DNA from: Fidelibacterota bacterium
GTDB lineage: Bacteria; Fidelibacterota; UBA8477; JABMPR01
Reading direction: 5' to 3'
NCBI GenBank assembly: GCA_016845065.1
Contig: JAERTG010000121.1
Span: forward strand, 62,001 to 126,000
DNA: 64,000 nucleotides
Part shown: piece after piece, positions 23,167-28,783 of the stretch
Position numbering within the stretch: position 1 is the stretch's first letter
Layout: each line of letters opens with the position of its first letter
Made by a program: the position numbers and the translations under genes
The notes under the pieces: generated by a model
What the model saw: the letters and a program-made list of their open reading frames with translations, nothing else
What the model was told of the DNA's origin: nothing
Databases searched by the model: none

Positions 23167-24594
23167 TCAGTGAGAAAGTTTCTTAATAAACGCTTCACCC
23201 TTGCTTAAGATTGAATCGTGGTCATCTGGTACTGAGAGCTTATTCATTACATTCATGGTATACTCTCTTAACCTGCTCAATGCATCAGGTGAGAACTCAG
23301 TTTGCCATTTATTTAATGAGTAGCCCGGCCAAATCTGACTATGTTGTTCATGGACGCTTCGGTAGTGGGCCAGGGTAGCTTCAGACAACAGGAAACTTCC
23401 ACCGGGTCCCACGGAATGTATATCCTTCAATGGGTCATTATTGTCATCCATTTCAAACCCATTGGCAAATTGCCTTACCTGCCGAATGATTTCATCGGCG
23501 TAAACCACTGTGGTGGGCGAAAAAGCCTGTGAATCAAAATTACCACCTACAAAAGGAGCCAATCCTACCTTTCCAATGGAATTTGTGAGATGGTTTATCC
23601 ATAGGGTACCGCTGGCCAACAGATCGGGTCCCCATCCAGTCCCACTGCCAGATGTTCCGGCATGCGGGAGTTTGTAGTAATCCATCATCTCAGCACAAGC
23701 AAGGTTTACCAGCATGGTTTGGGATGTGTAGGCGGAAATCATATTCTGCATTTCAAATACAGAAGGTAGACTTCCCAAAATGACTGGCGTCCCCGGCTTA
23801 ACTAATTGAGAAAATACAAGACCCGCCAACAATTCAGCATTGAGCATAACAAGGGTGCCCTCTGCAGTGATGGGTGCTGTCGCTCCCGACATCCCATAAC
23901 TGGAGAAAATAAACGGTAAATCCCGATCGATGGTTGAGAATATTTTATCAGTTGTGTCCTCATTCAAAACCAGCGGTGTAATTGGATTGAAATAGGGGAG
24001 CACAAATGGATCCTGAGCAAGATCACCATGAAGATGCTCCAACATCCGAAGGGTTTGTTCAAATTGTCGTGGTTCGGATATGAGAATAATGATTGGTTTG
24101 CTCGTGTTCGCCATCATCTCAAGAGCGGCTGTCACCTCTCCCACTTTTGAGTTGTCGTTCTGGATCACGCCAGGAGTTGAGACAAGATCAAACTGGGAAA
24201 GCGTGTTACCCAGAGCTGTGGCAAGCTCAACATGATTCCTTAAAAATGGAGTTGCCGCATCATTTTCAGCATTTTGGTACCAGGAGTTGGTTACTCCGAT
24301 CCCATATATTGTTCCAGTTTGCTGCTGTCCTCCCAATGAGAAGGCCAGGCTTTTATCTCTTCTGTAAACATTGATTTTTGGTGGTGCGGAATGGAGAGCC
24401 TGCTCTACCAATTCGTCGGGAATTCGAATTAGATCCCCATCAATTGCTCCACCTAAAGCTTTTGAGAAGACGGCTCTAGCCCGTCCGGAGTCTACCCGTA
24501 TCCCCGTATGGGACAGTACTTTAAGGGAATCCTGATGAATTTTCAGGATTTGATCCTGATCGAGTATTGCTATTTTGGGTTGTATACTGTTCAT
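23167..24594 (-). CDS. MttB-family (non-pyrrolysine) methyltransferase
   Basis: The 475-residue product matches the trimethylamine methyltransferase (MttB) superfamily in length and in its N-terminal pattern: ILKIHQDSLKVLSHTGIRVD, IPDELVEQALHSAPP, then GTIYGIGVTN and the barrel segment AGTSGSGTGWGPD. The gene is uninterrupted, so it has no amber codon and no pyrrolysine; homologues without pyrrolysine include glycine betaine (MtgB) and other quaternary-amine demethylases that pass a methyl group to a corrinoid protein. No corrinoid protein, MtgA-like partner or activator is nearby, and the substrate is unknown. Flanked by dusB and rsgA, with small gaps. Confidence 0.8.
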   Translation of the reverse strand: MNSIQPKIAILDQDQILKIHQDSLKVLSHTGIRVDSGRARAVFSKALGGAIDGDLIRIPDELVEQALHSAPPKINVYRRDKSLAFSLGGQQQTGTIYGIGVTNSWYQNAENDAATPFLRNHVELATALGNTLSQFDLVSTPGVIQNDNSKVGEVTAALEMMANTSKPIIILISEPRQFEQTLRMLEHLHGDLAQDPFVLPYFNPITPLVLNEDTTDKIFSTIDRDLPFIFSSYGMSGATAPITAEGTLVMLNAELLAGLVFSQLVKPGTPVILGSLPSVFEMQNMISAYTSQTMLVNLACAEMMDYYKLPHAGTSGSGTGWGPDLLASGTLWINHLTNSIGKVGLAPFVGGNFDSQAFSPTTVVYADEIIRQVRQFANGFEMDDNNDPLKDIHSVGPGGSFLLSEATLAHYRSVHEQHSQIWPGYSLNKWQTEFSPDALSRLREYTMNVMNKLSVPDDHDSILSKGEAFIKKLSH

Positions 24595-27245: not shown

Positions 27246-28085
27246 TTAACTCGCCAATTGATCAAGAATTTTGGAACACCCTCCACATGCAATGTAATCG
27301 GCATGATCTTCCACATCTCTAAATTTTCTACCTACGATATCTGAACACTCGAATTCGTAATCACTGACCTTTAAAAAACTCTCCATGGCCTCCAAAGTTG
27401 CTTGATTGTTAAAGTTAAGCATATCACCGGAGTCTGAACTACTCTGCAAACCTTTTAACCAGATGGATGCACCCAACGCACCACAAGCGCCACCACTCAA
27501 ACCAATTCCTCCTGCAAGACCAGCTGCCATAACCTGGTGTTCCTCTGAGAGACCCATTTTTTTAGCCAAAAGAGAAGCACAACTGACGGGTTGTGAGGGA
27601 ACAGTTGGTAATTCTTTTGCTAGAACCTTATCGATTTCGGTGTAGGCTTCAGGTGCGAATTTTGCAGCCATTCGAAAACACCCGATTGTTCCGCCTTTTA
27701 GCAAAAAGAAAGTCACCATTTTCAATGTAGAAGAATTTTTATCGATATCAGTGATCTCGAGGCAATTGATGTGTTTGTTCTGTGCTCGAAAGGATTCAAC
27801 TAATTGTTGAGATGCTAAGACTGCTTTGGTTTCTGCTTTCGATCCTGAACCATCTAGTCTGAACGCCTCAGTCCCTGCAGCAAGAGCTGCTCCCCAAATC
27901 ATGCCACATTGATATCCATGCTGCATGATGCCCCCAGCAAGAGAGGCTGTCGCCTTTTCTTCGGGAGTCTTACTGTTTTCAAAGCCCTGGTTGAGAACTC
28001 TCAACAAGGTTTCTGATCATGTACCAGCTTTAAGGAATGTCTTAACTGCTCCCATTCCTGTTACATTACTATTTGGATTAGTCAT
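27246..28085 (-). CDS. C-GCAxxG-C-C family selenoprotein (in-frame UGA read as Sec), tandem-domain form
   Basis: Read through one in-frame UGA (28017-28019, residue 23), the gene encodes 279 residues from the ATG at 28085, with GGGGAGG 4 bases upstream. UGA falls where the family has its first redox cysteine: KAGT-Sec-SETLLRVLNQGF. A stem-loop with apical GU follows, as in bacterial SECIS elements. The sequence then repeats the family pattern: copy 1 has Sec23, C60 (QCGMIWGAALAAG), C108 (NCLEI) and C136; copy 2 has C169 (SCASLLAKKMGL), C201 (ACGALG), C247 and C267/C270. The spacings match, so it looks like a tandem duplication with Sec only in copy 1. A caller that stops at UGA would start at TTG 28007. 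These proteins are putative membrane-associated or secreted redox proteins; the substrate is unknown. No selA-D genes lie in the window. An SAM methyltransferase gene ends 23 bases upstream. Confidence 0.8.
27986..28019 (-). promoter_or_regulatory. UGA codon with SECIS-like stem-loop
   Basis: The UGA occupies 28019-28017. Downstream on the minus strand, C28009-C28008-T-T-G-T-T-G-A-G28000 pairs with C27995 to G27986 with one T-C mismatch, leaving apical loop AGTT; the loop G is nucleotide 22 and the T nucleotide 23 counted from the U of UGA. In E. coli fdhF the conserved apical G and U are at about 23-24, so the distance and loop fit a bacterial SECIS element that binds SelB. The fold was made by hand and not tested by a covariance search. 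Confidence 0.65.
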
Positions 28086-28108
28086 CATCCCTCCCCTAGA
28101 ATCTCAGC

Positions 28109-28783
28109 TTATTTTTTATACGCCAGCACGATATCCACTGGCAATCCGAACATGGACATTTCATTCACACTTCTGATATTAAATCCACCCTCGCTGATTG
28201 ACTGCTCAACATAAATGGGTCGACAATCTACATATTTAGTGAAGTTTTTCTGTGTCCATTCATATAGTCTGACCATATAACTATTTCTGGACTTTTTTGC
28301 CATAGACACAATGCACAGTTTCCCACCAGGTTTTAAAACTCGATGACATTCTGTAAGTACGACTGGTATTTCAGGTGTGTCGAATAGCTCTAAAGTAAAA
28401 CTTGAAAACAATGCATCGAATGAATTGTCGGAATAGGACATTTCAGTTGCATCTCCCAGGGTTAGGTCGACCAAATCTTCGAGTCCTGCCTTTAGCAATC
28501 TGGATCGAGCCACATCCAACATTCCGGGAGATAGATCCACACCGAAAACTCTACCATTTCTCCCTACAGCCTCCCCCAAAGCAACGAGGCACTGTCCTGT
28601 ACCACACCCAACTTCAAGAACCCATTCCTCCACTTGGCAATCGAGGGTCTGTAAACCCATCTCTTTATACTTCTTTTCGGAGAAACCTGCCAGCCAATCA
28701 TAGGAACCACTCATTTTGTCATAACTGGATCTGGCCTCATCCCGCGACCTTAATACTCGATTTATAGGAGATGGGTTACTCAT
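28109..28783 (-). CDS. Class I SAM-dependent methyltransferase
   Basis: This 224-residue protein has motif I in WVLEVGCGTGQCLVALGEA, motif II in VFGVDLSPGMLDVA, and motif III-like FDALFSSFTLELFD, then HRVLKPGGKLCIV. This is the UbiE/Methyltransf_11 type. C-terminal positions are not predictive of substrate. It lies 23 bases before the selenoprotein gene and 16 bases after rnd, suggesting one transcript. Methyltransferases of this type recurring next to C-GCAxxG-C-C proteins would be a useful clue but was not checked. Confidence 0.78.
   Translation of the reverse strand: MSNPSPINRVLRSRDEARSSYDKMSGSYDWLAGFSEKKYKEMGLQTLDCQVEEWVLEVGCGTGQCLVALGEAVGRNGRVFGVDLSPGMLDVARSRLLKAGLEDLVDLTLGDATEMSYSDNSFDALFSSFTLELFDTPEIPVVLTECHRVLKPGGKLCIVSMAKKSRNSYMVRLYEWTQKNFTKYVDCRPIYVEQSISEGGFNIRSVNEMSMFGLPVDIVLAYKK

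Follow-up and report, generated by a model that had tools for sequence, protein, structure and literature searches.

An in-frame UGA very probably decoded as selenocysteine in a tandem C-GCAxxG-C-C protein of a Fidelibacterota bacterium

Reading frame and UGA codon

A 279-residue protein with two tandem C-GCAxxG-C-C domains is encoded on the minus strand of the window (the whole 64,000-nucleotide stretch of DNA that was analysed), and comparison of its sequence indicates that UGA codon 23 is very probably read as selenocysteine (Sec). The frame described by the initial annotation was confirmed: it begins with an ATG at 28085 preceded by GGGGAGG, contains a single in-frame TGA (codon 23, 28019-28017) and ends with a TAA at 27248-27246. 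An additional in-frame ATG is present at 28088. The proposed decoding as Sec was supported by homologues carrying UGA or Cys at the site, and by tRNA-Sec, selA, selB and selD in the genome.

27246..28085, minus strand: two-domain C-GCAxxG-C-C gene, 279 aa, predicted selenoprotein with Sec at residue 23
28017..28019, minus strand: in-frame UGA, codon 23, very probably read as Sec (UGA or Cys in homologues; sel genes)
28090..28096, minus strand: Shine-Dalgarno-like GGGGAGG (from the sequence)

The context of the UGA in translation is KAGT-U-SETLLRVL, which had been matched to the opening Cys block of the family. Homologues have UGA or Cys there. Translating the UGA as a residue improved the PF09719 match from 70.4 to 77.2 bits, and the best stretch now starts at residue 23. 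The program-called ORF 3' of the UGA does begin at TTG 28007, as anticipated for automated annotation, and comprises 253 aa without codon 23. Residues 1-22 are largely conserved among the homologues, with the consensus ISSxGTVGTFLKxGT before the UGA site. Given this conservation, the part of the frame upstream of the UGA is no chance extension.

Homologues and domain structure

A scan of GTDB genomes identified 31 homologous loci with a best-segment identity of 46-84%, giving 32 rows with the window. By record title they belong to Neomarinimicrobiota, Zixiibacteriota, Nitrospirota, Calditrichota, Fibrobacterota, Cloacimonadota, Myxococcota, Chloroflexota, Acidobacteriota, Gemmatimonadota, Bacteroidota and others. 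Alignment of the homologues at the UGA position, a check suggested in the initial annotation, showed TGA in 21/31, a Cys codon (TGC or TGT) in 10/31 and any other codon in 0/31; the in-frame UGA is thus aligned with Cys in homologues. In one locus (L044), counted as a UGA form, the TGA lies directly before the reported match. Cys60, 108, 136, 169, 201, 247 and 270 are Cys in all of the 32 rows that reach them, and the Sec/Cys variation is limited to position 23 among the eight Cys/Sec positions.

27639..28019, minus strand: domain 1, with predicted Sec23, Cys60, Cys108 and Cys136 (PF09719, 49.2 bits, residues 1-149)
27246..27590, minus strand: domain 2, with Cys169, Cys201, Cys247 and Cys270 (PF09719, 36.3 bits, 27246-27638)

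The protein scored 61 bits with TIGR01909 (cut-off 47.4) and 77.2 bits with PF09719 (cut-off 27), and each half passed PF09719 separately. Four conserved Cys positions were found in each domain (U23/C60/C108/C136 and C169/C201/C247/C270), with parallel spacings. Alignment of domain 1 with domain 2 by hhalign was weak, with a probability of 2-5% (Neff 2.2 and 2.7). The global run paired the Sec23 region with the last Cys, and PF09719 by itself did not place C169 on U23; the match of U23 to C169 is therefore based solely on Cys spacing. In the genome, TIGR01909 found only the two domains of this gene, neither of which reached the cut-off on its own. A search of the plasmid collection with the 253-aa protein gave no match. 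In one homologous locus, a second PF09719 protein is encoded directly upstream of the homologue (L048:4011-4955). It starts with RRKFLKG, which we take to resemble a Tat signal for folded export.

Within Neomarinimicrobiota, 15/245 genomes had a match, including the window's own. A TGA form (L064) and a TGT form (L063) come from one genus, and three further loci (L065-L067) are Cys forms. One same-genus genome has a second paralogue (L070), also with TGA. Of two partial loci, L068 ends short of codon 23 and L069 has one in-frame TGA that was not assigned to a codon. A Cloacimonadota locus (L042) has an in-frame TAA at codon 30 besides its TGA at codon 20, which may be a sequencing error or decay.

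The tree was built from 39 proteins (25 Sec, 14 Cys) with the Sec/Cys site masked. It left out L052 (partial, residues 1-104), L055, L056, L058-L061 (the window's gene and same-genus copies) and the partial L068 and L069; the domain alignments also omitted L052. The profile A1 comprised 28/32 sequences, without L023, L026, L042 and L052. The best tree required 5 Sec/Cys changes (bootstrap range 5-6), and 0/500 shuffles were as low. The well-supported branches force 2 changes, with 11/36 inner branches open. Repeated exchange is therefore well supported; the exact number is not.

Hairpin downstream of the UGA

A hairpin resembling a bacterial SECIS element follows the UGA directly.

27979..28016, minus strand: SECIS-like hairpin (MFE -16.5 kcal/mol, pair counts, frozen codons)
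28005-28000 with 27995-27990, minus strand: upper stem of the hairpin, with loop AGUU at 27999-27996

According to PMC13188914, the bSECIS model has a loop of 3-9 nt, a stem of 4-16 bp, a G among the first two loop nucleotides, a spacing of 16-37 and an MFE of at most -7.5. The window hairpin agrees with this, having a 6-bp upper stem, a 4-nt loop, 17 nt from UGA to loop, a G in the second loop place followed by U, and the MFE given above. No departure from the model was found for the window. The SECIS-like element 3' of the UGA is thus present, but the model fit by itself is not specific. In our own version of the model, a 6-bp stem arose in 48% of 500 synonymously recoded versions of this stretch of the window, so that the fit alone is weak evidence. 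The fold energy is unusual in the window, where 0.4% of the recodings were as low, and much less so across the set of 22 UGA forms, with a median of 12.9%. Within the genome, the 16-nt hairpin core was found a single time, at this gene.

The hairpin sequence is shared among the UGA forms. GUUGAG or GUCGAG, the loop AGUU, and CUCAAC or CUCGAC were found 17 nt after the UGA in 18/22 UGA forms (window included), and this sequence was absent from 10/10 Cys forms. Other loops than the window's occur in the remaining UGA homologues: L050 has GAUCAA-CGUGC-UUGAUC at the same place, and L039, L043 and L047 have hairpins of other kinds. By eye, a second hairpin type, GAUCMA-CGUGY-UKGRUC, was noted in L050, L062 and L070. 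Both arms of its stem show changes, and these three loci form one branch of the tree. The MFE of the 45 nt after codon 23 was at or below -7.5 in 22/22 UGA forms (window included) versus 2/10 Cys forms, namely L040 (-10.4) and L048 (-9.2). L040 sits among mainly Sec forms in the tree and folds its hairpin at the SECIS place (L040:5067-5117), which may be a relic of a former Sec form.

Codon usage is frozen at this place. Leu-28 is always TTG and Arg-29 always AGA in the UGA forms, wherever those residues occur. Among rows with the same amino acid, codon identity at positions 28/29 was 1.00/1.00 in the UGA set versus 0.56/0.38 in the Cys set, with gene-wide means of 0.49 and 0.44, respectively. 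Codons 28-33 scored 0.86 and were the most frozen six-codon run of the UGA set; when the six Neomarinimicrobiota rows were removed, they came second (0.81) after the first codons of the gene (0.85).

Base pairing was assessed in an alignment (A3) of 19/22 UGA forms, from which L039, L043 and L047 were left out owing to their other hairpins, and in which L050, with its hairpin in another register, was kept. Over the 18 distinct rows, 97.2% of the cells were paired versus 17.6-50.9% in slid versions. Double changes were present in 4 cells of the paired stem, and 0/500 shuffles were as high. The third upper-stem pair was UA in 13 rows, CG in 4 and UG in 1. Two of the five pair measures did not stand out from the shuffles, of which 386 and 495 out of 500 reached as high a value. 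In L028, L032, L036 and L045 (GUCGAG/CUCGAC), both sides of one pair are changed and LLRVLN becomes LSRVLD, so that two residues change (Leu to Ser, Asn to Asp) while the pair is kept. As these four do not form one supported clade, the number of double-change events is not fixed by the tree.

Selenocysteine machinery

All four components of the Sec machinery that had been suggested for a genome search were found in the same genome. The tRNA-Sec scored 72 bits (gathering score 47) and was reported by ARAGORN as tRNA-SeC with the anticodon TCA. SelB (347.9 bits), SelA (517.7 bits) and SelD (370.2 bits) were each above the cut-off, with selA and selB on one contig. The selD gene (L018, contig C50) itself contains one in-frame TGA in the context AAG-U-AGKIGPGDL, presumably at the place of SelD's catalytic Sec/Cys. 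In Table 1 of PMC13188914, Sec-containing SelD is given the motif UxxK. The genome's own selD probably encodes a Sec form. One in-frame TGA was also observed in 3/14 AhpC-TSA matches of the genome, which are candidate selenoproteins (G000:C9:1191-1586, C32:12892-13251 and C32:131463-131819). An Rfam scan of the window found one tRNA.

Among 36 genomes tested, selB was above the cut-off in 20/22 with a UGA form and 10/14 with a Cys form. The UGA-form genomes below it were G248 (L025; best match 97 bits) and G275 (L052), where the match is a 119-bit piece at a contig end. Of the Cys-form genomes below it, G254 has pieces of 139 and 108 bits on one contig, and G256, G264 and G272 have best matches of 185-197 bits covering the first 264-267 positions only.

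Two other readings of codon 23 were considered. Were the UGA a true stop, the gene would start downstream at TTG 28007 and the upstream frame would be noise, as the program-called ORF of 253 aa would have it. This is very improbable and was rejected, given the conserved N-terminal frame, the 10/31 homologues that have a Cys codon there and are read through without a stop, and the GGGGAGG before ATG 28085. No evidence was found in support of a changed genetic code with UGA as a sense codon for Trp or Gly. TGA ends 12/48 of the non-overlapping ORFs of >= 180 aa in the window, the homologues have Cys and never Trp or Gly at the site, and the genome has the Sec machinery; this reading was rejected as well, with a probability close to nil.

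Gene neighbourhood, structural model and proposed function

A methyltransferase gene lies directly upstream and is probably co-transcribed with the selenoprotein gene.

28109..28783, minus strand: UbiE-like methyltransferase (Pfam), ending 20 nt before the first ATG of the selenoprotein gene

The methyltransferase is upstream in 6/6 close Neomarinimicrobiota loci (window included), all with the order RNase D-like, methyltransferase, selenoprotein gene, RsgA-like, MttB-like and Dus-like; in 4/6, an acyltransferase lies between the selenoprotein gene and the RsgA-like gene. The names MttB, methyltransferase and acyltransferase were taken from Pfam, and those of RNase D, RsgA and Dus are our own presumptive assignments from the sequences. 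The MttB-family protein (window 23167-24594) is a single open frame, scored 220 bits with TIGR02369 (cut-off 525) and is syntenic in 6/6 close loci. The neighbours differ outside Neomarinimicrobiota. No neighbour family was common to most of the 32 loci, zinc-type dehydrogenase occurring in 6 and methyltransferase in 9.

The AlphaFold2 model is almost wholly helical (mean pLDDT 84.4, pTM 0.87); in it, all eight Cys/Sec residues lie close to or at the start of a helix. A phmmer search of the PDB with the 253-aa protein gave 0 matches at E up to 1. An hmmsearch of the PDB with profile A1 gave 3 matches (best E 0.11), which were not credible. Foldseek against the PDB gave 114 matches at E <= 10 and 0 at E <= 0.001, with a probability of <= 0.08 in the best 50 of the 114.

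In the proposed mechanism, SelB and tRNA-Sec(UCA) would decode UGA 23, directed by the hairpin right after it. Of the four conserved Cys positions in domain 1, Sec23 would take the first; domain 2 has Cys at all four. The exchange of Sec and Cys at position 23 leads us to infer that Sec23 probably supplies the selenol that attacks in a selenol/thiol redox centre. A nearby Cys would be the resolving or co-ligand residue; our guess would be Cys60 of the GYQCG motif. As judged from sequence, a selenol/thiol oxidoreductase with Sec23 as the attacking residue is a somewhat probable function.

Two other functions for the selenoprotein were weighed. Sec23 and the Cys residues might instead bind a metal or Fe-S cluster, for electron transfer or metal handling. 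Such binding would fit the presence of four conserved Cys/Sec in each domain, placed by the model close to or at the starts of helices, and also the tandem relative in L048, whose RRKFLKG start we presume to be Tat-like. However, Sec and Cys exchange at a single position, the remaining seven being Cys in every row that reaches them, and exchange confined to one position is more typical of a catalytic residue; metal binding is a possibility that we regard with some doubt. The protein might also act together with the neighbouring methyltransferase, their substrate being a compound that contains a methyl group, sulfur or a metal(loid). The position of the methyltransferase gene directly upstream in 6/6 close loci, methyltransferases directly downstream in L030 and L033, and the NCBIfam C-GCAxxG-C-C and methyltransferase families named by the neighbouring locus tags DVU_1555 and DVU_1556 point to such a partnership, but a methyltransferase of the same cluster is near in only 9/32 loci, and we consider it unlikely.

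Relation to known selenoproteins

The initial annotation had stated that Sec forms exist in this family, and published sources agree. C-GCAxxG-C-C is listed as a selenoprotein family in PMC9312934, PMC13188914 has forms 1 and 2 (MGD8741185.1 and WP_012158890.1) in Table 1, and the NCBIfam name of TIGR01909 contains '(seleno)protein'. A search of the available literature with the family name and selenoprotein or selenocysteine found nothing beyond these two papers. The family name is absent from PMC12013277 and from the main text of PMC2398784, the source of form 2. Selenium forms of C-GCAxxG-C-C proteins are thus already known, and the window protein, of the same family by profile, is a further member. 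Its two domains lie in tandem, and predicted Sec is confined to the opening Cys/Sec position of domain 1; the protein was compared with forms 1 and 2 by their listing alone. The DVU_1555 family (NF045669) was matched at E <= 1e-5 by 28/28 members scanned; the window protein scored 46.5 bits, below the cut-off of 103, and lies outside it. The HUGP/GUXX-star fusion selenoprotein (NF045501) gave a weak match over domain 1, with 5/28 members at E <= 1e-5 and 22.7 bits for the window protein against a cut-off of 325.

Discussion

A wider reading is offered tentatively. The proteins might form a distinct, widely spread tandem C-GCAxxG-C-C selenoenzyme subfamily with at least two types of SECIS hairpin, and be a new redox enzyme whose fold is unmatched among solved structures. 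No specific NCBIfam model covers the tandem subfamily (28 members scanned). It is conceivable, if doubtful, that the coding sequence in this subfamily has been bent to keep an RNA fold (LLRVLN/LSRVLD), with Sec and Cys exchanging repeatedly. With similar reserve, one might regard the hairpin sequence as retained by UGA forms and lacking in Cys forms, L040 perhaps having a relic fold.

The gene adds a well-supported case of Sec recoding from a phylum with few cultured members. An annotation ending at the UGA would miss the N-terminal part together with the predicted Sec. With natural Sec/Cys pairs such as L063 and L064, which share a genus, one could study the benefit of selenium in a family of proteins that gave no match to a solved structure.
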